Shown here: in pieces, positions 8,839-59,163 of the stretch | How the letters are laid out: each line of letters begins with the position of its first letter | Numbering within the stretch: position 1 is the first letter of the stretch | NCBI GenBank assembly: GCA_015064155.1 | Contig: SVST01000002.1 | Location: 110,384-174,383, forward strand | From: Oscillospiraceae bacterium | GTDB taxonomy: Bacteria; Bacillota; Clostridia; Oscillospirales; CAG-272 | Length of the DNA: 64,000 bases | Direction of reading: 5' to 3' | Translations under genes and position numbers: made by a program | Notes under the pieces: generated by a model | Database searches by the model: none | The model's input: only the letters and a program-made list of their open reading frames with translations | What the model was told of the DNA's origin: nothing

Positions 8839-10449
8839 TCAGTCGGCTTGTTCGCGCATATAGTCCTCCAGCTCGCTTTTGATCACCGCCACCTGCGGTC
8901 CGTAGATCACCTGCACGCCGCCGCCCTTGCGGATCACTCCTGCCGCGCCGCTTTGCTTCAAAAGATCCTCACGAACCGAGGACGGGTCCTTCACCGACAC
9001 GCGAAGCCGCGTTGCGCAGCAATCCAAGCCGATCAGGTTTCCCTTGCCCCCCAAGCCCTCCAGAATCATTGCCGAAACACCGCCGGCTTCCTTACGGGCA
9101 TTATAATCGGCACGTGTATACAGCTTGGTTTGGTCACCGTCCTCCTCGCGCCCCGGGGTCGTGTAGTTCTTCTTGCGGATCAAGAAGCGGAACAAGAGGA
9201 AATAGACGATGAAATAGAACGCGCCCACCAAAGGAATCATCAACCAATTGGTCTTTTCGTTCCCCTGCAAAACACCGAACAAAAAGAGATCGATCAGTCC
9301 ACCCGAGAAGGTCATGCCGACCCCCACGCGTAAGACGTGCATCAGCATATAAGCAAGACCCGCCAAAACCGAATGAATCACGTACAAAAGCGGCGCAACG
9401 AACAGAAAGGTAAATTCCAGCGGCTCGGTAATTCCCGTCAGCATCGCAGTAAGAGCCGCCGACAAAAGAAGTCCTCCCGCCACCTTTTTCTTGTGGGTCT
9501 TGGCACAGGTATACATTGCCAACGCAGCACCCGGAAGCCCAAAGATCATCAAGGGGAATTTTCCACTCATAAAGCGGCAGGCTTCCACCGAGAAGCGCAC
9601 CGTATTAGGCGATGCCAGCTCGGCAAAAAAGATATTTTGCGCACCGTATACCATCGTGCCGTCGATCAAGGCAGAGCCTCCCACGCCCGTCTGCCAGAAC
9701 GGCAAATAAAACACGTGGTGCAGTCCAAAGGGAATCAAAATGCGTTCAATAAAGCCGTAGATCAGCGTTCCCGCGTAGCCCGAGCGCAATACCAGATCCC
9801 CCAAAGCATAGATCCCGTTCTGCACGTAGGGCCAAATGAAAAACATGACGATTCCCACGAGCAGATATACCACCGTTGAGATAATCGGAATAAACCGTGC
9901 ACCGCCGAAAAACGAAATGACAGTGGGCAACCGAATCTTGTAAAACCGATTGGTCAGCGCGGCAACCCCGAGCCCCACGATAATACCGCCGAACACACCC
10001 ATTTGCAGGGATTGGATGCCAACCACGTTTGCAACCGTTCCCTCGGGCATCGCGCCTGCCGCCAGCATCCCGCTGATAGACAGCAGCACGTTGATGGTTT
10101 TGTGCATTACGAAAAAAGCAATTGCCGCAGACAAGGCAGCGGTTGCTTTCTCCTGCTCCGCCATTCCAAGTGCCACTCCCATGGCAAACAAGATCGGCAG
10201 ATTGTCAAAAATAACGGTTCCAACCGAGGCAAGCACCGTAAAAATCGAATACGGCACGGTTCCGGGTCCCATCACAGCGGTAAGACCGTAGGTTTCCAGC
10301 ATTGCCGCGTTGGTCAAGGAGGCTCCAACCCCTAAAAGAAGTCCCGCAATCGGCAAAAGCGCGATGGGAAGCATAAAGGCTCTTCCCACGCGTTGCAAAA
10401 CACCGAACACGCCGCCTCCCGTTTGCTTTTTCATCAAAGAATTACTCAT
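8839..10449 (-). CDS. PTS transporter EIICB, glucose/N-acetylglucosamine family
   Basis: A 536-residue membrane permease that imports and phosphorylates a hexose. The EIIC domain (about residues 15-400) has roughly ten membrane segments and the conserved FLFGVLQGNEKTNW and GITEPLEFTFLFVAP blocks. A linker leads to a C-terminal EIIB domain with the phosphorylation site DCCATRLRV; Cys478 is the equivalent of the active cysteine of PtsG. The next gene upstream is its EIIA, and HPr and EI precede that, so a full phosphorelay is encoded in one operon. Sequence alone cannot separate glucose, GlcNAc and maltose-type members; a neighbouring hexosaminidase makes GlcNAc attractive. Confidence 0.88.
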   Translation of the reverse strand: MSNSLMKKQTGGGVFGVLQRVGRAFMLPIALLPIAGLLLGVGASLTNAAMLETYGLTAVMGPGTVPYSIFTVLASVGTVIFDNLPILFAMGVALGMAEQEKATAALSAAIAFFVMHKTINVLLSISGMLAAGAMPEGTVANVVGIQSLQMGVFGGIIVGLGVAALTNRFYKIRLPTVISFFGGARFIPIISTVVYLLVGIVMFFIWPYVQNGIYALGDLVLRSGYAGTLIYGFIERILIPFGLHHVFYLPFWQTGVGGSALIDGTMVYGAQNIFFAELASPNTVRFSVEACRFMSGKFPLMIFGLPGAALAMYTCAKTHKKKVAGGLLLSAALTAMLTGITEPLEFTFLFVAPLLYVIHSVLAGLAYMLMHVLRVGVGMTFSGGLIDLFLFGVLQGNEKTNWLMIPLVGAFYFIVYFLLFRFLIRKKNYTTPGREEDGDQTKLYTRADYNARKEAGGVSAMILEGLGGKGNLIGLDCCATRLRVSVKDPSSVREDLLKQSGAAGVIRKGGGVQVIYGPQVAVIKSELEDYMREQAD

Positions 10450-10467
10450 ACTTTCTCTCCTTCATGC

Positions 10468-10944
10468 TCACGCGGACGGAACGTAGCGTGCCGCCTCGCT
10501 TTTTCCGCCAAGTCCCTTCCCCTTGCAAATTTGCAACTCGCTCACCGTTTCGGGATTGGTAATCAGCACCACCGTGTGAAGCGGAAGCGACGCCTCGCGC
10601 AGCACGTCCAGGTCTACCCGCGCCAGCACGTCCCCCGCCTTGACGGAATCTCCCTCTGAAACCATCGGCAAAAACCCCTTGCCGCCCAGCGTGACCGTAT
10701 CGATCCCAACGTGTACCAAAAGCTCGGTTCCGTCGTCACCCATCACCGTATACGCATGACGCGCATCGGTAACACTTTCGATCCGTCCCGTCATCGGCGC
10801 GTAAACCGTTCCCGCCGTCGGGAGGACCGCAAAGCCGATCCCCAGCATTCCCGAACAAAAGGCCTCGTCGGGAACGTCAGAAAGCGGAATCAGCGTGCCG
10901 TCAATCGGGAACAGCATCAATTTTTCTTTTTTAAAAAGCTTCAT
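10468..10944 (-). CDS. crr: PTS EIIA component, glucose type
   Basis: A 158-residue soluble phosphocarrier. The family motif TELLVHVGIDTV is present; His78 in LVHVGIDTV is the predicted phosphorylated residue and His63 (ARHAY) its active-site partner. It sits 18 bases upstream of the EIICB gene, which lacks its own EIIA, and downstream of the EI gene. Length matches stand-alone EIIA-Glc. Confidence 0.9.
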   Translation of the reverse strand: MKLFKKEKLMLFPIDGTLIPLSDVPDEAFCSGMLGIGFAVLPTAGTVYAPMTGRIESVTDARHAYTVMGDDGTELLVHVGIDTVTLGGKGFLPMVSEGDSVKAGDVLARVDLDVLREASLPLHTVVLITNPETVSELQICKGKGLGGKSEAARYVPSA

Positions 10945-53388: not shown

Positions 53389-53442
53389 GCTGCAAAACCT
53401 CTCTTTTTTTGATAAATCGGTACTATAATTCTATAATACTAT

Positions 53443-53471
53443 ATTTTATCACATTTTCCCCCGCTTGTCAA
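53443..53471 (-). promoter_or_regulatory. Promoter of the LysRS gene
   Basis: On the minus strand TTGACA (53471-53466), 17 bases, TAAAAT (53448-53443), 55 bases before the start codon. No T-box leader fits in this short gap. Confidence 0.8.
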
Positions 53472-53535
53472 CCGCTTTTCTCGTTTTCTTTTGGAGGGCA
53501 TTTTTCTTGTTTTTTAGAGGGCATACAACGAAAGT

Positions 53536-53565
53536 GCCGAGAGCGACAAAAGGGTTGCTCTCGGC
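53536..53565. repeat. GCCGAGAGC hairpin, left flank of the XRE gene
   Basis: GCCGAGAGC (53536-53544) with GCTCTCGGC (53557-53565). A related hairpin with the shared core GGTTGCTCTCGG occurs at 54580-54606 on the other side of the 53617-54429 gene. Confidence 0.65.
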
Positions 53566-53616
53566 GGTGAATTTATTTATAGTATCCGCGCGAGGCGGGG
53601 CGAAGAAAACTCGATT

Positions 53617-54429
53617 CTACTGTATCCAGAGATTATTATAAGAACCTCGATAATTAAAATAGTGTTGTTCATTTTCGTCAATTAATCTTGCAGTTTTCAA
53701 GATCATCAGCACATACATAATGCTTTCGTCGGAGTTAAGCGCATACATACGTACAAAATTATTTTCATCAAGCATAACATCGGTTGGATGATTCACATGA
53801 ATTTCTGTTAACAGTTCAAGTGCCTCTGTAGCTTCGTCGGCAGAAATATTACATTGTTTAGCTGCATACGGCGCGGTAATAGGCTTTGTCATATTTTCCA
53901 TTTCATAAGCAAAAACTCGTCTCACCGCTAATTTTGACAAAACCTCAAGCACGCGACCGATCCCTTCCTGTACAAGTTGATCGGCATTCGCTTTGCCCCT
54001 GTGTAACAGACCGATTTCGGATGTGGCAACCACAGCTCCTCTTTTGTTTGAAAAAGTTGCGGTTTTAACCTTTCGGTTTTCTGCAAGATAGGATTTCATT
54101 TTCTCCTTTTCTGCTTCAATATCTTTTCCCTCGACCGTATCCACCCAGCCTCGTTGAGTAAGATCTATCACAGTATCATACAGCATTTCGGGAATGTCAT
54201 CATAATCAACAGGTTGCCTTTTTTTCGTTGGTTTTCTGCCACAGTACAGTTCGTCAACCGTGATATCAAAGCAAGCTGCAATCACGGGGAGAAGCATGAT
54301 GTCGGGCATCGTTACTTCGTTTTCCCACTTGGAAATTGTTTGGGATGATACGCCAAGCATCTCGGCAAGCTGCTCCTGTGTCATGCAACTATTTTTTCTT
54401 AAATCAGCGATATTTTTTCCTATCGTCAT
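53617..54429 (-). CDS. XRE regulator with C-terminal unassigned domain
   Basis: A 270-residue protein. Residues 1-60 are a classic HTH: IADLRKNSCMTQEQLAEMLGVSSQTISKWENEVTMPD. The remaining 200 residues are alpha/beta with no membrane segment and no recognisable enzyme motif; they may sense a ligand or oligomerise. The ATG follows AAGGAGAA. A minus-strand TTGTGT-17-TATAAT promoter is at 54502-54474. It is flanked by two similar hairpins and lies in the accessory island next to tRNA-Ser. Confidence 0.83.
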   Translation of the reverse strand: MTIGKNIADLRKNSCMTQEQLAEMLGVSSQTISKWENEVTMPDIMLLPVIAACFDITVDELYCGRKPTKKRQPVDYDDIPEMLYDTVIDLTQRGWVDTVEGKDIEAEKEKMKSYLAENRKVKTATFSNKRGAVVATSEIGLLHRGKANADQLVQEGIGRVLEVLSKLAVRRVFAYEMENMTKPITAPYAAKQCNISADEATEALELLTEIHVNHPTDVMLDENNFVRMYALNSDESIMYVLMILKTARLIDENEQHYFNYRGSYNNLWIQ

Positions 54430-54579
54430 ATAAAATTCTCCTTGTGTCCTTATATTCCGGATCCGTTAAGATAATTATATCACCAAAACATGATAAACAC
54501 AACAACAACATTGGAGATTGAATATCCAAAACAGATTGGTACTTTTCTTAATTGGATAACTTTCACATATAGTATGCCG

Positions 54580-54606
54580 CCGAGAGTGCCAGCCGGTTGC
54601 TCTCGG
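54580..54606. repeat. CCGAGAG hairpin, right flank of the XRE gene
   Basis: CCGAGAG (54580-54586) with CTCTCGG (54600-54606) and the shared core GGTTGCTCTCGG with the hairpin at 53536-53565, in the same orientation. Confidence 0.6.
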
Positions 54607-54751
54607 TGCTTTCATTACCGGGTTTGTATACATCATCATTCATTTGGTATGTTCCTCAATCAGAAAGGAGGATGTTCTCGCCTACATAGCAAGGAGCGAA
54701 CATGAGAAGCGAAACGAGATACCCGTGGGCATCTTCAATGCCAAAAAGACA

Positions 54752-54804
54752 AATAACCCTCGCAGAACCGAGTCGCCTGACTCGGACTGTGGGGGTTATT
54801 TTGA
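54752..54804 (+). terminator. Terminator-like hairpin in the leader of the HTH gene
   Basis: AATAACCC, CAG and CCGAGTC on the left pair with GACTCGG, CTG and GGGTTATT on the right, followed by TTTT. It lies 50 bases before the proposed start codon at 54854, so it may attenuate that gene or end an earlier short transcript. The rest of 54430-54853 shows an AGAAAGGAGG site (54661-54670) with no convincing gene after it. Confidence 0.6.
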
Positions 54805-54853
54805 TGATACAAACTATAAACTTCGTGGCAAGGAGCGAGCAAGGTTCAAGGAA

Positions 54854-55111
54854 ATGCTTGAGGATCTTCTTTCTGCCGTCCCCGACACGCTAACCGTGGA
54901 CGATGTCGCCGAGCTGACAGGCTATCACCGAAGAACAATTCTTCGGTACGTGCAGAAAAAATACATATACGCCGTGAATATTATGGGCAAGTACTACATC
55001 TCAAAGCAGAGCATCATTAACTACCTCGCCACCGACAAGGCGTTTAAGAATACGCAGAAATCAAGGTGGCATGAGGAAATTATTGCGCAACTAATTAAAA
55101 TAAATTCTTAA
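54854..55111 (+). CDS. Excisionase-like helix-turn-helix protein
   Basis: An 85-residue protein. LTVDDVAELTGYHRRTILRYVQKKYIYAVNIMGKYYISKQSIINYLAT is the MerR/excisionase-type winged HTH in which a small hairpin follows the recognition helix. Such proteins often belong to mobile elements. The frame is open upstream to a TTG at 54644 and would cross the hairpin at 54752-54804, so I prefer the ATG at 54854 (AAGGA close upstream). It converges on the GIY-YIG gene with a 4-base overlap of their stops. Confidence 0.65.
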   Translation: MLEDLLSAVPDTLTVDDVAELTGYHRRTILRYVQKKYIYAVNIMGKYYISKQSIINYLATDKAFKNTQKSRWHEEIIAQLIKINS

Positions 55112-55533
55112 GACTCTTCTGAAATTCCCACTTTATTTATAACGCCAACATTGGTTGTTTTTATTAACATGTATTCCAAAGAATCATTGGGGAAAGCGTA
55201 AATTCTTAAGTTCTTTATGTATTCCATAGCAGCTGAATTGTCTTTTGCTAATCCCATATCAATAATATCGCTTATGAGAGAATTTCCAGTGTCCTTTGAA
55301 GATGTGTATTGCAATAATCGTTTGTGTACTGTTTGGACATAAGCACTACCTATATAAACCACATCGTCTTTCTTGTTGCATAAAATATATATGCCTTGAT
55401 AATTGAAATTGTCTTTACGGGAAAGATTTTCTTTTTTTAACAAAACAGATTCCTTCTTCAAAACTTCTACTGAAGGAATTTTTTCTTGTGGATACTGCTT
55501 TTGCGCTATTGATATTAATTCGTCTATTTTCAT
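55108..55533 (-). CDS. GIY-YIG domain nuclease-like protein
   Basis: A 141-residue protein with an N-terminal helical lead (1-45) and a GIY-YIG fold. GIY is residues 47-49, YIG 60-62, the conserved Arg is R72 (HKRLLQY), the metal-binding Glu is E120 (LEYMLIKTTN) and the terminal Asn is N133. All catalytic positions of the family are present, so activity on DNA or RNA is likely. No additional DNA-binding domain is seen. The ATG at 55533 follows GAGGT, 10 bases after the stop of the HEPN-like gene, implying one operon. Base composition is much more AT-rich than in the flanking housekeeping genes. Confidence 0.8.
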   Translation of the reverse strand: MKIDELISIAQKQYPQEKIPSVEVLKKESVLLKKENLSRKDNFNYQGIYILCNKKDDVVYIGSAYVQTVHKRLLQYTSSKDTGNSLISDIIDMGLAKDNSAAMEYIKNLRIYAFPNDSLEYMLIKTTNVGVINKVGISEES

Positions 55534-55543
55534 TGTTTTTACC

Positions 55544-56449
55544 TCATTTAGATAAAGCATGACCAAACAAATTAATGTAGTTGTTCAAGTTTAAAGTAAT
55601 ATTCTGAGCAAGATTGGCAAGATCTTGTGACTTGTTATTGCTTATATGATCTATAGTCAACAGAAGGAACAAATAATACGTCAACAAAAATGCAAAATAA
55701 CTATTAGCCATAGTTGCCATATTAGTCATGCTGCTTTTTGTAATTGAAATAGCAGAGCCATGGGCAGTATCGTTACGAAGTGAGTATATATATCCAGAAA
55801 GAAGTATGTGCAACTGATCCTCAAAAGAAATGTGATATGTTAAACTATCGATTGAAACAGAAGAATCGGTAAGTATATGATAAAGTAATCGGCTTCCCGG
55901 GCGAATAGCATTAGCGTAATTGGCAAAATCGTTAGGATAATTGGAATTCACCTTGTTTAAAAGCGCAAGACGATTACTATCTTCTGCTCCAAGACTATTC
56001 TTCGTTGATCTGTCAAGAATCTGCGATTTGTGAATACCGACAAAAAGATACTGTAGGCTTTTTTGCGGAATATGACTAATTAAATTTGAAAAAGCATTTT
56101 TTAAATTGGTATCGCTTTCAATTAGCGTACACAAGTCAGGAGTAAGCCTCCAATTTCGATTGGTGATTCGATTAATTGAATAGACCGATTTGCTATAAAT
56201 ATCATAAGCGGTAAAAATAAATTCAAAAGAATGGTTGGGTTTGTGTCCTAAAGATTCTACGGCATCAATCAAAAAAGACACGGCCTTATTATAAAATTCG
56301 TTATTATCAACCACCATTTTGAACGGAATAAACGGAGTGCCATTATTTATGCTACGGAATTTTTCTTCATACTGAAGTTCGGCTTCAAATCTTTTAATAT
56401 TAGGCCAATTGTTGATATACTCGATTCTTTTGGTTTTAAAATCTGCCAT
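55544..56449 (-). CDS. Protein with HEPN-like Rx4H motif, unassigned
   Basis: A 301-residue, mostly helical, soluble protein of no family I can name. Residues 225-230, in SLRNDTAHGSAIS, match the Rx4-6H catalytic motif of HEPN ribonucleases and closely resemble the RNxxAHG form of ApeA-like HEPN domains. The following helix is very hydrophobic (FAFLLTYYLFLLLTI), as in HEPN bundles. The N-terminal 200 residues could be a sensor. The ATG at 56449 follows AGGAGG. The gene starts 46 bases past the tRNA-Ser 3' end, and the only thing in between is the tRNA terminator and the ribosome site. AT-rich and probably transferred. Confidence 0.7.
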   Translation of the reverse strand: MADFKTKRIEYINNWPNIKRFEAELQYEEKFRSINNGTPFIPFKMVVDNNEFYNKAVSFLIDAVESLGHKPNHSFEFIFTAYDIYSKSVYSINRITNRNWRLTPDLCTLIESDTNLKNAFSNLISHIPQKSLQYLFVGIHKSQILDRSTKNSLGAEDSNRLALLNKVNSNYPNDFANYANAIRPGSRLLYHILTDSSVSIDSLTYHISFEDQLHILLSGYIYSLRNDTAHGSAISITKSSMTNMATMANSYFAFLLTYYLFLLLTIDHISNNKSQDLANLAQNITLNLNNYINLFGHALSK

Positions 56450-56472
56450 TTTTACCTCCTTGTTAATCGAAA

Positions 56473-56493
56473 AAGCCCCGAAAATCGGGGCTT
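56473..56493 (-). terminator. tRNA-Ser terminator
   Basis: AAGCCCCGA (56473-56481) with TCGGGGCTT (56485-56493) followed by TTTTTC on the minus strand. Directly downstream is the ribosome site of the HEPN-like gene. Confidence 0.88.
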
Positions 56494-56495
56494 GA

Positions 56496-56584
56496 TGGCG
56501 GAGGGTGTGGGATTCGAACCCACGTGAGATTGCTCTCAAACGGTTTTCAAGACCGCCTCGTTATGACCGCTTCGATAACCCTCC
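56496..56584 (-). tRNA. tRNA-Ser (UGA)
   Basis: An 89-base class II tRNA. Acceptor stem GGAGGGT pairs with ACCCTCC, G is the discriminator and CCA is encoded. The anticodon loop CTTGAAA has anticodon TGA; the variable arm is long (GAGAGCAATCTC), and GTTCGAATC is the T loop, all typical of serine tRNA. Confidence 0.95.
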
Positions 56585-56627
56585 GTGTAACAGAGTGGTT
56601 TGAGAAGTGGCTCGGCGTTAGCCGAAT

Positions 56628-56668
56628 CCGCTTCGCAACATTCGCCGCAAGGCGAAATAACCCTCCGT
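56628..56668 (-). repeat. Interrupted copy of the tRNA-Ser 5' end in the tRNA leader
   Basis: In plus-strand terms CCGCTTCG (56628-56635) and ATAACCCTCCGT (56657-56668) together repeat the first 18 bases of the tRNA gene plus the flanking ACG. They are separated by a 21-base insert (56636-56656) that holds a TTCGCC/GGCGAA hairpin. Confidence 0.7.
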
Positions 56669-56706
56669 AAATATGATGCAACAGCGTGCATTTCATCAAC
56701 CTCTAT

Positions 56707-56735
56707 ATTTTATCACACTCTCGGTGACTTGTCAA
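56707..56735 (-). promoter_or_regulatory. Promoter of tRNA-Ser
   Basis: On the minus strand TTGACA (56735-56730), 17 bases, TAAAAT (56712-56707). It is about 120 bases upstream of the mature tRNA, so the transcript includes the broken 5' copy. Confidence 0.82.
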
Positions 56736-56748
56736 GCAATTCCATTAA

Positions 56749-56820
56749 AAAACCGAAGAATTCCGCGAAAAAACCGAAGAATTTGGGCATTCAAACTTCT
56801 TCAAAATTCTTCGGTTTTGC
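56749..56820 (-). terminator. Double terminator after the YbaK-type gene
   Basis: AAAACCGAAGAATTTT on the minus strand pairs with AAATTCTTCGGTTTTTT, and a second AATTCTTCGGTTTTTT copy follows, so two nested or alternative stems with T runs are possible. Confidence 0.8.
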
Positions 56821-56833
56821 TTCGGTTTTGCAA

Positions 56834-57379
56834 TTATGCCTCTCCGGTCAGGTGTACCGTTTGATAAGAATGCTTTACGGCAGGCAAGAACACCCTGACA
56901 ATATCCTCCGTCTTGATGCGCAAGCTGGAGGTATTGACGCACGGATGGCAGCCGAGGTATTCCTCCCGCAGCACGTCCTCGTCGATCAGGAGCGTCACCT
57001 CTCGCTCGGTGTCGTTCATCAGTCCCATCACGCTGACAGCTCCGGGGTGAATATCCAGATATTGTTCCATGCTTTCCGCGCCGGCAAAGGACAGTCTTGC
57101 CGAGCCGATCTGTGCCGACAGCTCCTTTGTGCGAAACGGCTTATCCCCCGGAGTCAGCAGCAAATAAAAGGCGGTTCCCTGCCGGTTACACAAAAACAAA
57201 TTCTTGCACATTTTTACGTCCAGCGCGGCATCGACAGCCAAGCAATCCTCCATGGTTTCCGCCGGTGCATGGTCTACCCGTGTATAAGCGATCTGCAACC
57301 GATCCAAAAGGTCGTACGTCCGCACCTCTCGCGCTTCTCTTCCCGTCACGTCGGCGGGTCTTCCTTGCATTACCGTCAT
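56834..57379 (-). CDS. YbaK/ProX-type aminoacyl-tRNA deacylase
   Basis: A 181-residue editing domain protein that removes wrongly attached amino acids from tRNA, most likely Ala from tRNA-Pro. Blocks are YTRVDHAPAETMEDC, VKMCKNLFLCNRQGTAFYLLL (catalytic Lys in the KNLF motif), GSARLSFA, HPGAVSVMGLMND and GCHPCVNTSSLRI, the last being the substrate loop GxHPxxN. This combination is the ProX/PrdX type. The ATG at 57379 follows AAGAGG. It is single, with terminators on either side. Confidence 0.9.
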   Translation of the reverse strand: MTVMQGRPADVTGREAREVRTYDLLDRLQIAYTRVDHAPAETMEDCLAVDAALDVKMCKNLFLCNRQGTAFYLLLTPGDKPFRTKELSAQIGSARLSFAGAESMEQYLDIHPGAVSVMGLMNDTEREVTLLIDEDVLREEYLGCHPCVNTSSLRIKTEDIVRVFLPAVKHSYQTVHLTGEA

Positions 57380-57411
57380 TGTTTGTTCCTCTTTTCCTAT
57401 GTTTATAAACG

Positions 57412-57457
57412 AAAGGGGTGGGTCAAATGCGAAACCGCATCGGTGACCCATCCCCTT
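57412..57457 (-). terminator. Terminator of fhs
   Basis: AAAGGGGTGGGTCA (57412-57425) with TGACCCATCCCCTTT (57444-57457); one G-T or mismatch. It lies between the fhs stop and the deacylase gene. Confidence 0.8.
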
Positions 57458-57492
57458 TTTTGTATGGTACGGTCGATCTGCCGTCCCGATTC

Positions 57493-59163
57493 TCAGAACA
57501 GACCCGTGATCTTTCCGCTTTCGTCCACGTCGATCTTTTCTGCCGCGGGAACCTTAGGAAGACCCGGCATGGTCATAATATCGCCCGTCAGTGCAACCAC
57601 AAAGCCTGCGCCCGCACTGATCTTGACGTTGCGAACCGTTACCACAAAGCCATCGGGAGCACCAAGCTTGGTGGCATCATCCGAAAAGCTATACTGTGTT
57701 TTTGCCATACATACGGGGCAATTTGCAAAGCCCAGCTCGGTCAGCTGTGCGATCTGCTTCTTGGCAACGGGGGTAAAGTTTACACCTGCACCGCCGTAGA
57801 TCTTCTTGGTGATCGCTTCGATCTTATCCTCAATCGATCCGTCCAGCTCGTAGGAATAGGTAAAGTCACCCTTTTCCTCCTCGCAAAGACGAACGACCTC
57901 GCGTGCCAGTGCCTCACCGCCCTTGCCGCCTTCTGCCCAAACGGTAGAAAGCACCACGTTAACGCCCAATTCACGACAACGGCGAATGATCTCCTCAATC
58001 TCGGCATCGGTGTCGGTGGGGAAACGGTTAACGGCTACCACTGCGGGCAGCTTATAGACGTTCTTGATATTGGAAACGTGACGGAGCAGGTTGGGAAGTC
58101 CTTTTCCAAGTGCCTCCAGATTCTCGCTTCCAAGCTCGGTCTTCGGAACACCGCCGTGCATCTTCAGTGCGCGTACGGTCGCTACGATGACAACGGCAGA
58201 GGGGGTAAGACCCGCCATACGGCACTTGATGTCCAAAAACTTCTCGGCTCCGAGATCTGCGCCAAAGCCTGCCTCGGTAACGGTGTAGTCACCCAGTTTC
58301 ATCGCCATACGGGTAGCGATCACCGAGTTACAGCCATGTGCGATATTGGCAAACGGACCACCGTGTACGAATGCGGGAGTTCCCTCCAGCGTTTGTACCA
58401 GATTAGGCTTGAGTGCATCCTTAAGAAGTGCTGCCATTGCACCGACTGCGCCAAGCTGACCTGCGGTAACCGGCTTTTCGTCGTACGTATATGCTACAAC
58501 AATGCGCGAGAGACGCTCCTTGAGGTCGGTAATCGAGCTTGCCAGGCAGAACACTGCCATGATCTCGGATGCTACAGTGATATCGTAACCGTCCTCACGG
58601 GGAACACCGTTGACGCGTCCTCCTAAGCCATCGGTTACGAAACGGAGCTGACGGTCATTCATATCCACGCAACGCTTCCAGGTGATGCGTCTGGGGTCGA
58701 TATTGAGTGCATTTCCCTGATAAATATGGTTGTCCAGCATCGCAGCCAAGAGGTTGTTTGCCGCACCGATGGCATGGAAGTCACCCGTAAAATGCAGATT
58801 GATGTCCTCCATGGGAACAACCTGCGCCCAGCCGCCGCCTGCCGCGCCGCCCTTGATGCCGAACACGGGACCCAAGGAAGGCTCACGCAATGCTACAACA
58901 ACGTTCTTTCCGATACGCTTCATACCGTCGGCAAGACCGATGGTGGTTGTGGTCTTTCCCTCACCGGCGGGAGTGGGAGTAATCGCGGTTACCAAAATCA
59001 GCTTTCCGTCCTTACGGGGACTTTCCTTGAGCAGATTATAGTCAACCTTTGCCTTGTACTTTCCGTACTGTTCCAAATATTTGTCGTCAACGCCCGCTAC
59101 CTTTGCAACGTCGGTAATCGGCTTCATTTCGACAGATTGAGCAATTTCAATATCAGTCATCAT
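57493..59163 (-). CDS. fhs: Formate-tetrahydrofolate ligase
   Basis: A 556-residue enzyme making 10-formyl-THF from formate, ATP and THF. The ATP loop [19 protein letters not shown] is near residues 65-83, [19 protein letters not shown] and [17 protein letters not shown] follow, and [21 protein letters not shown] is the C-terminal landmark. Length is that of the bacterial monofunctional enzyme. In anaerobes it feeds one-carbon units from formate. The ATG at 59163 follows AAGGA; an ATG one codon later is an alternative. Confidence 0.96.

Follow-up and report, generated by a model that had tools for sequence, protein, structure and literature searches.

A HEPN-like and GIY-YIG gene pair behind tRNA-Ser as probable cargo of a decayed mobile element that may supply its own tRNA

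A gene pair behind tRNA-Ser(UGA)

The gene pair described here lies in a 64,000-nucleotide stretch of an Oscillospiraceae genome (hereafter the window, in whose coordinates positions are given) and consists of orfA, coding for a HEPN-like protein, and orfB, coding for a GIY-YIG protein, both placed behind a complete tRNA-Ser(UGA) gene (Table 1). An initial annotation, made from the letters alone, had described an AT-rich two-gene unit behind the tRNA and a 46-base gap holding only a terminator and a ribosome-binding site, in which no promoter would fit, and the analysis bears out both points. In 500-base windows the G+C content is 0.30-0.36 over the pair. It is 0.41-0.45 in the adjoining stretch on the left (about 53.3-55 kb) and 0.52-0.56 beyond this, while on the right it is 0.49-0.56 as far as 59 kb. 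The orfA start codon stands 46 nt past the 3' end of the tRNA, the gap consisting of a hairpin and AAGGAGGT, and a scan of 54400-56900 finds no minus-strand promoter between the tRNA and orfA. The start codon of orfB follows the orfA stop by 10 nt, this gap lying inside a Shine-Dalgarno-like GAGGTAAAAACA stretch, and the orfB stop overlaps by 4 nt that of a convergent open reading frame (ORF) encoding a protein with two helix-turn-helix (HTH) domains. The unit should be extended past its earlier coordinates, so as to include this HTH ORF on one side and the leader up to 56735 on the other.

Table 1. Features of the locus, from the leader of the tRNA to the convergent HTH gene
Feature	Position	Strand	Basis
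Promoter-like site TTGACA-17-TAAAAT, extended -10	56707..56735	minus	promoter scan, 11/12, TG before -10
Likely fossil start of an older tRNA-Ser	56628..56666	minus	sequence and 35-nt match to same-genus loci
tRNA-Ser(UGA), complete, most likely element-borne	56496..56584	minus	ARAGORN; anticodon TGA
Intrinsic-terminator-like hairpin, 9 bp, in the tRNA-to-cargo gap	56473..56493	minus	hairpin scan
Ribosome-binding site AAGGAGGT	56454..56461	minus	sequence; common to the SIR2 cargo of L075
orfA, 301 aa, HEPN-like predicted ribonuclease (R225-N226-xxx-H230, D83); ATG at 56449	55544..56449	minus	model and alignment
orfB, 141 aa, GIY-YIG nuclease (predicted); ATG at 55533	55108..55533	minus	Pfam, catalytic positions, fold matches
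Two-HTH protein remnant, 5'-truncated, HTH_17 domain	54644..55111	plus	Pfam, homology to L019

Two predicted nucleases

The RNDTAH motif of orfA (R225-H230) and the complete set of GIY-YIG catalytic positions of orfB (G47-Y49, Y60-G62, R72, E120, N133) were both found at the residues first reported, and the HEPN-like and GIY-YIG identities proposed from them are supported. In the predicted model the Rx4H motif of orfA stands at the end of helix 209-230 and is followed by the loop 231-243, as expected of the HEPN motif Rx4-6H, which closes core helix 3, and the polar residue that HEPN proteins have right after the arginine is present as N226. Since the arginine is kept in 74 of 75 aligned rows and N226 and the histidine in all of them, the rows forming 38 clusters at 80% identity, the motif is more than a chance occurrence. 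D83, in helix 71-90, is likewise present in 75/75 rows, being an aspartate rather than the glutamate of the Ex3[KR] motif typical of HEPN core helix 2, and K87 is found in 41/75 rows only. A structural check had been proposed for the 301-residue protein: the predicted structure is confident and helical and gives AbiV and Csm6 a high rank in the list of solved folds, though with moderate scores, and SidM/DrrA and ROQ domains come close to HEPN. These last two readings were set aside because the conserved motif and its position fit HEPN. On this alignment and model, orfA is likely a HEPN-like, probable RNA-cutting protein, which would act as a metal-independent ribonuclease in the style of abortive infection.

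AbiV and Csm6, which like Csx1 are HEPN ribonucleases, have a helical core in common with orfA. A long helical insert between the core helices sets orfA apart, and so does its classical R-N-x3-H motif, the histidine of which AbiV typically lacks in the cited part of its description (PMC3710099); we do not claim membership of the two-component AbiV system, with its SaV-type activation, for orfA, the AbiV motif being different. No match to orfA was obtained among the defence families of PADLOC, in Pfam or among PDB sequences. It adds a strongly conserved, unnamed HEPN-like family.

As for orfB, the Pfam GIY-YIG family PF01541 matches at 26.3 bits against a cut-off of 22.6, and the fold of T4 endonuclease II is matched over nearly the whole protein. 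The catalytic positions are invariant in 10/10 aligned rows, which at 71-99% identity to the window protein are weak as a measure of conservation. Sequence and fold together make orfB a GIY-YIG nuclease with a T4 endonuclease II-like fold, predicted to cut DNA. Its identity to T4 endonuclease II and to the N-terminal domain of UvrC is about 22%, and it differs from them in adjoining a HEPN-like gene and in having no known target. It would assist orfA as a DNA nuclease or act in parallel.

No relative of orfA was obtained from 50,697 phage or 72,556 plasmid records (tblastn, E 1e-3), nor from viral_contigs; genome_contigs gave one. Besides that of the window, none was found in 393 order-level or 397 phylum-level genomes (E <= 1e-8), and 245 other genomes of the family gave two short matches only, near E 1e-3, which we read as chance. 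The linkage of orfA to orfB or to a tRNA could be followed in the one relative with readable surroundings, that of Thomasclavelia saccharogumia (L002), and no orfB match lies within the 16.7 kb around it. The reading of the HEPN/GIY-YIG pair as one conserved defence system is therefore not supported. The frame of the Thomasclavelia gene (10001-10935 of that locus) is interrupted in a run of A close to the start of the gene, and AAA ATPase-like and recombinase-like genes were noted by eye close to it. In a separate protein of 506 aa (P0016), what looks by eye like a phage-portal N-terminus is fused with the C-terminal portion of a relative of orfA; it is probably an assembly chimera, or possibly an insertion of the orfA family into a phage gene.

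An integrative mobilizable element with the same layout

The surroundings of the pair recur in related genomes with other genes in its place. In a genome of the same genus (G991, loci L019/L073), the HTH ORF is matched at 87% identity over 431 nt, the homology beginning at 54656, and the tRNA with its terminator at 93% over 150 nt; a different gene, of 236 aa, fills the cargo place, and window positions 53401-57500 show no other match to L019. When 246 genomes of the family were searched with the HTH ORF, a match (E <= 1e-3), mostly a weak one, was obtained in 44. Larger stretches were fetched for 12 loci and then for 34 more, and HTH and tRNA genes were recounted over 47 loci, of which 46 were kept, L131 having no HTH match. 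These loci, picked by similarity to the tRNA or to the HTH gene, are a non-random sample.

In three of them (L074, L075, L076) the HTH gene codes for a full-length protein (192-193 aa) and comes after a tyrosine integrase, an HTH_17 gene and a MobA/VirD2-type relaxase, while on the other side of the element the cargo slot and then tRNA-Ser lie convergent to the HTH gene. The integrase and HTH_17 gene of L075 and the relaxase of L074 were identified with Pfam, and the remaining element genes by tblastn; the relaxase of L075 is cut at the contig end and the integrase frame of L076 has one stop. Judged by this gene content, the layout is that of an integrative mobilizable element (IME), in agreement with the link to mobile DNA that the initial annotation had drawn. 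HTH proteins with an identity of at least 36% to that of L074 occur in 18/46 loci, and a convergent tRNA-Ser stands downstream in 12 of these 18, three of the six others ending within 500 nt. Beside the 28 more distant homologues (<36%), tRNA-Ser was found twice; these loci were not used as support for the element, except that one, L144, belongs to the 12-locus set discussed below, where it is among the three loci that lack a 5' half. Searches for the HTH protein in plasmids and for the integrase in viral_contigs gave no match.

An IME has an integrase and a relaxase of its own, and no match to either was obtained in the window between 50001 and 60000. Because none is left, the window copy is probably a remnant of such a mobile element and not an IME, by gene content. 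L073 and L078 are also remnants, having kept the tRNA, the cargo and the HTH end. In a 10.3-kb IMG/VR contig (L145), three serine-recombinase-like genes (by eye) are followed by an integrase remnant of 62 aa (69% identity) and the HTH gene, the element retaining tRNA-Ser and a HEPN-like cargo gene; the place of the tyrosine integrase may have been taken there by a unit of serine recombinases.

A cut tRNA and a complete one

Twelve loci were examined for tRNA remains upstream of the complete tRNA-Ser, leaving out L126, with tRNA-Ser(CGA) behind tRNA-Ala, and L124, with tRNA-Ser(CGA) 5.4 kb away. In nine of them, all but the window, L073 and L144, a tRNA-Ser 5' half is present, which starts 162-198 bp upstream of the complete gene and ends at position 41-43, in the anticodon loop. 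A 17-bp core, equivalent to tRNA positions 25-41, lies at the tRNA end of the element. A wider scan covered 140 loci with 34 distinct tRNA-Ser sites, six loci that repeat the place of the window being excluded, and found the fossil core with at most one mismatch 156-174 nt upstream at 12/26 UGA sites and 1/8 CGA sites. Two of the 14 UGA misses (L048, L145) have less than 100 nt of upstream sequence, and L078, a longer copy of L048, has the fossil. The fossil-plus-intact layout was also seen on tRNA-Ser(CGA) in L124, where a distant match to the integrase lies close by.

The far end of the element is visible in two relatives. In L076, the 17-bp core occurs again 7.1 kb away, past the relaxase, and is followed by an apparent decayed T-arm. 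In L074, a degenerate core (3/16 mismatched) is followed by the leader that in L037 stands directly after another 5' half, an arrangement such as tandem and nested insertions would give. A separate tRNA 3' half precedes the terminator, the ribosome site and the cargo gene in L036, and L033 has a weaker candidate, its contig ending 12 nt before it. These sequences are most simply explained by insertion of the element into the anticodon loop, which leaves the resident tRNA cut, and by the supply of a complete tRNA from the element. The tRNA of the window, proposed at the outset as an integration site, is probably not a mere landing site, since the elements of relatives hold a complete tRNA-Ser with the 5' half upstream.

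The window has a short, likely fossil start of a tRNA-Ser, made up of GGAGGGTTAT (56657-56666), a 21-nt palindromic insert (56636-56656) and CGAAGCGG (56628-56635). Positions 56657-56691 give the 35-nt match to L020 and L037, of the same genus, in which the start of an intact tRNA-Ser or of a 5' half stands at this place. The palindromic insert, TTCGCC...GGCGAA, was also noticed by eye upstream of tRNA-Ser in L028, L029 and L030, after the first ten bases of tRNA-Ser-like starts; it could possibly be a small repeat element targeting dead tRNA starts.

In the genome that holds the window (G000, 86% complete), 37 tRNA matches were obtained, 36 of them above the cut-off, with one tRNA-Ser gene each for GGA, UGA, CGA and GCT. 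Since the window gene is the only UGA one found, a cell that lost the stretch would probably have no tRNA left for UCA codons, and this dependence is a plausible reason for the persistence of the stretch.

An exchangeable cargo slot

The slot is bounded by the tRNA-terminator-Shine-Dalgarno stretch on one side and the convergent HTH ORF on the other, and its contents vary. While the window slot holds the HEPN-like and GIY-YIG genes, that of L075 holds a ThsA-like SIR2_2 gene, those of L073 and L076 related proteins of 236 and 229 aa with a hydrophobic start (by eye), and that of L078 two genes. The slot protein of L145 is HEPN-like, with an RNKLVH motif, a weak match to Csx1 and one below the threshold to a zinc ribbon; L082 codes for a metallo-beta-lactamase fold and L083 for a protein of 136 aa. 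No cargo is present in L074, L077 and L144, no ATG-started ORF of 60 aa runs towards the HTH gene in L141, and in L142 the tRNA is 4.2 kb away. When ten slot proteins were compared, only those of L073 and L076 matched each other at E 0.01 (77%). The 4-nt overlap of the cargo and HTH stops is common to the window, L073 and L076.

The distance from the tRNA to the cargo start is 46 nt in the window, 48 in L075, 51 in L073, 63 in L078, 65 in L145 and 74 in L076, and from the tRNA end to the ATG the HEPN-like gene of the window and the SIR2 gene of L075 are identical at 48/51 positions. A Schlafen AlbA_2 protein was also noted beside a truncated HTH gene in L138, the contig of which ends before any tRNA.

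Proposed expression from the tRNA promoter

Among the minus-strand promoter-like sites of 54400-56900, the one upstream of the tRNA (56735-56707) is the strongest and the nearest upstream of orfA, and it is the likely source of transcription for both the tRNA and the cargo. In the relatives, the strongest site in the direction of the tRNA lies on the host side of the cut (10/12 in L074, 12/12 in L075 and 11/12 in L076, extended -10), and the scan finds none between the cut and the cargo in these three loci. The number of promoter-like sites is near that of shuffled sequence, and the argument is therefore carried by their position and strength. The order in the window is that of the relatives, namely promoter, short fossil, tRNA, terminator and cargo.

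Taken together, these data suggest that the cargo would be expressed by read-through of the terminator from the tRNA promoter. This proposal, already made in the initial annotation, remains an inference, strengthened because differing cargo genes share one tRNA-terminator-ribosome-site stretch. Expression may be low or conditional, since the gaps fold at -15 to -27 kcal/mol, that of the window with its ATG at -15.3 kcal/mol.

Interpretation and alternative explanations

We consider it probable that the pair is cargo of a decayed IME which cut a host tRNA-Ser in the anticodon loop, supplied a replacement tRNA and placed its cargo behind this tRNA for expression from the captured host promoter. 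The tyrosine integrase of the element would perform the integration, terminator read-through or its conditional relief would express the cargo, and the cargo, being linked to the single tRNA-Ser(UGA) gene that the genome was found to have, would be retained more easily after the loss of the integrase. For the pair itself we infer a role in phage defence. We also favour, with more reserve, a wider proposal, in which such elements form a class that swaps its tRNA target instead of repairing it. Each insertion would cut tRNA-Ser, install a new working copy and drive exchangeable, promoterless immune genes through a terminator, so that the cargo is locked to an essential gene and 5' halves accumulate as a fossil record, the HEPN and GIY-YIG genes being one cassette that outlasted the machinery of its element.

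Mobile DNA is well known to land at tRNA genes, and in the accepted picture the tRNA is repaired by a fragment carried on attP. The locus could accordingly be a classical tRNA-site island, in which the intact tRNA is that of the host, regenerated by the attP fragment, the cassette is ordinary island cargo and the upstream 5' halves result from tandem duplication of the tRNA followed by decay. This is the usual mechanism for tRNA-site islands in the cited parts of PMC4383910 and PMC5704250, and two observations speak for such an island: the fossil of the window itself is only short, and the core is missing at 14/26 UGA sites. In such an island, however, the island lies between the intact tRNA and the fragment, whereas in the relatives both are on the same side and the complete tRNA is inside the element. 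Moreover, what is left as a fossil is the 5' half, on the promoter side, at a narrow range of distances and with the same anticodon-loop end in 9/12 loci, its acceptor strand is clearly unlike that of the intact tRNA in 4/12 of the fossils counted at UGA sites in the wider scan, the core is repeated at the far end in L076, and L036 has a separate 3' half. We consequently regard the classical island as quite improbable.

HEPN proteins occur in toxin-antitoxin pairs, and two small genes separated by 10 nt on mobile DNA could also be an addiction module that stabilises the element and has no part in phage defence. We think this unlikely, as orfB, with all its catalytic positions, looks like an active nuclease, unlike a typical antitoxin, the orfA relative of Thomasclavelia has no orfB nearby, and the slot of other elements holds a single gene or none. 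That orfB is a homing-type nuclease moving cargo between elements, with orfA as the sole effector, appears to us very improbable.

Relation to known elements

With respect to known systems, IMEs with a tyrosine integrase at tRNA genes have, like L074, L075 and L076, a relaxase, an integrase, an excisionase-like HTH_17 gene, a tRNA target and cargo. They differ from the present loci, where one half of a tRNA remains and the element itself contains a complete tRNA gene; the target gene of an IME, in the cited part of PMC5704250, stays undisrupted because one repeat includes its end. Islander-type islands, as far as the cited sections of PMC4383910 go, have in common with the present loci an attachment site in the anticodon loop, a tRNA fragment together with an intact tRNA, and tandem insertions. 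They are however located between the intact tRNA and the fragment, with an attP that contains a tRNA fragment, whereas here both are on the same side and less than 200 bp apart. In the same sections, 5' fragments are given for 159/3919 islands, and intervals below 2 kb or without an integrase are rejected, so that the fragment-tRNA interval found here would not pass these filters. Tycheposons have a tRNA at one border, a tyrosine recombinase and variable cargo, as here; in the cited parts of PMC10872708 they are 4-200 kbp long, with cargo mainly for nutrient uptake in Prochlorococcus, and their description there includes neither a split host tRNA replaced by an element-borne copy nor a tRNA-linked ribosome-site platform. 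Archaeal integration, in the section cited from PMC8371274, reconstitutes an intact tRNA gene. A swap of the whole tRNA is not described in the cited parts of PMC4383910, PMC5704250, PMC8371274 and PMC10872708. Titles and the starts of abstracts obtained by searching the open-licence literature mention no element with a complete tRNA, no defence cargo driven by a tRNA promoter and no HEPN with GIY-YIG, which is weak evidence of novelty.

If true, outright replacement of the tRNA would explain cargo that is hard to delete, expression of defence genes that lack promoters and the turnover of tRNA-Ser in this lineage. Tools that expect an island between the tRNA and its fragment would miss such elements, and the slot behind the tRNA would offer a simple rule for finding defence candidates, which is to read what comes after the terminator.

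Neighbouring genes

The gene at 56834-57451, next to the locus, is presumably a ybaK-like deacylase. Its orthologue is present in 12 other genomes of the genus, and its use as a marker of an old tRNA site was dropped, as 0/11 of the orthologue places fetched had a tRNA within 2-3.5 kb. On the other side, the HTH remnant and a gene for a class I lysyl-tRNA synthetase-like protein flank a gene for an XRE-type regulator (53617-54429), the place of which is taken by another gene in L073. The sequence upstream of this synthetase gene (53439-53471) and that upstream of the tRNA-Ser fossil (56703-56735) are both promoter-like and are 79% identical over 33 nt.
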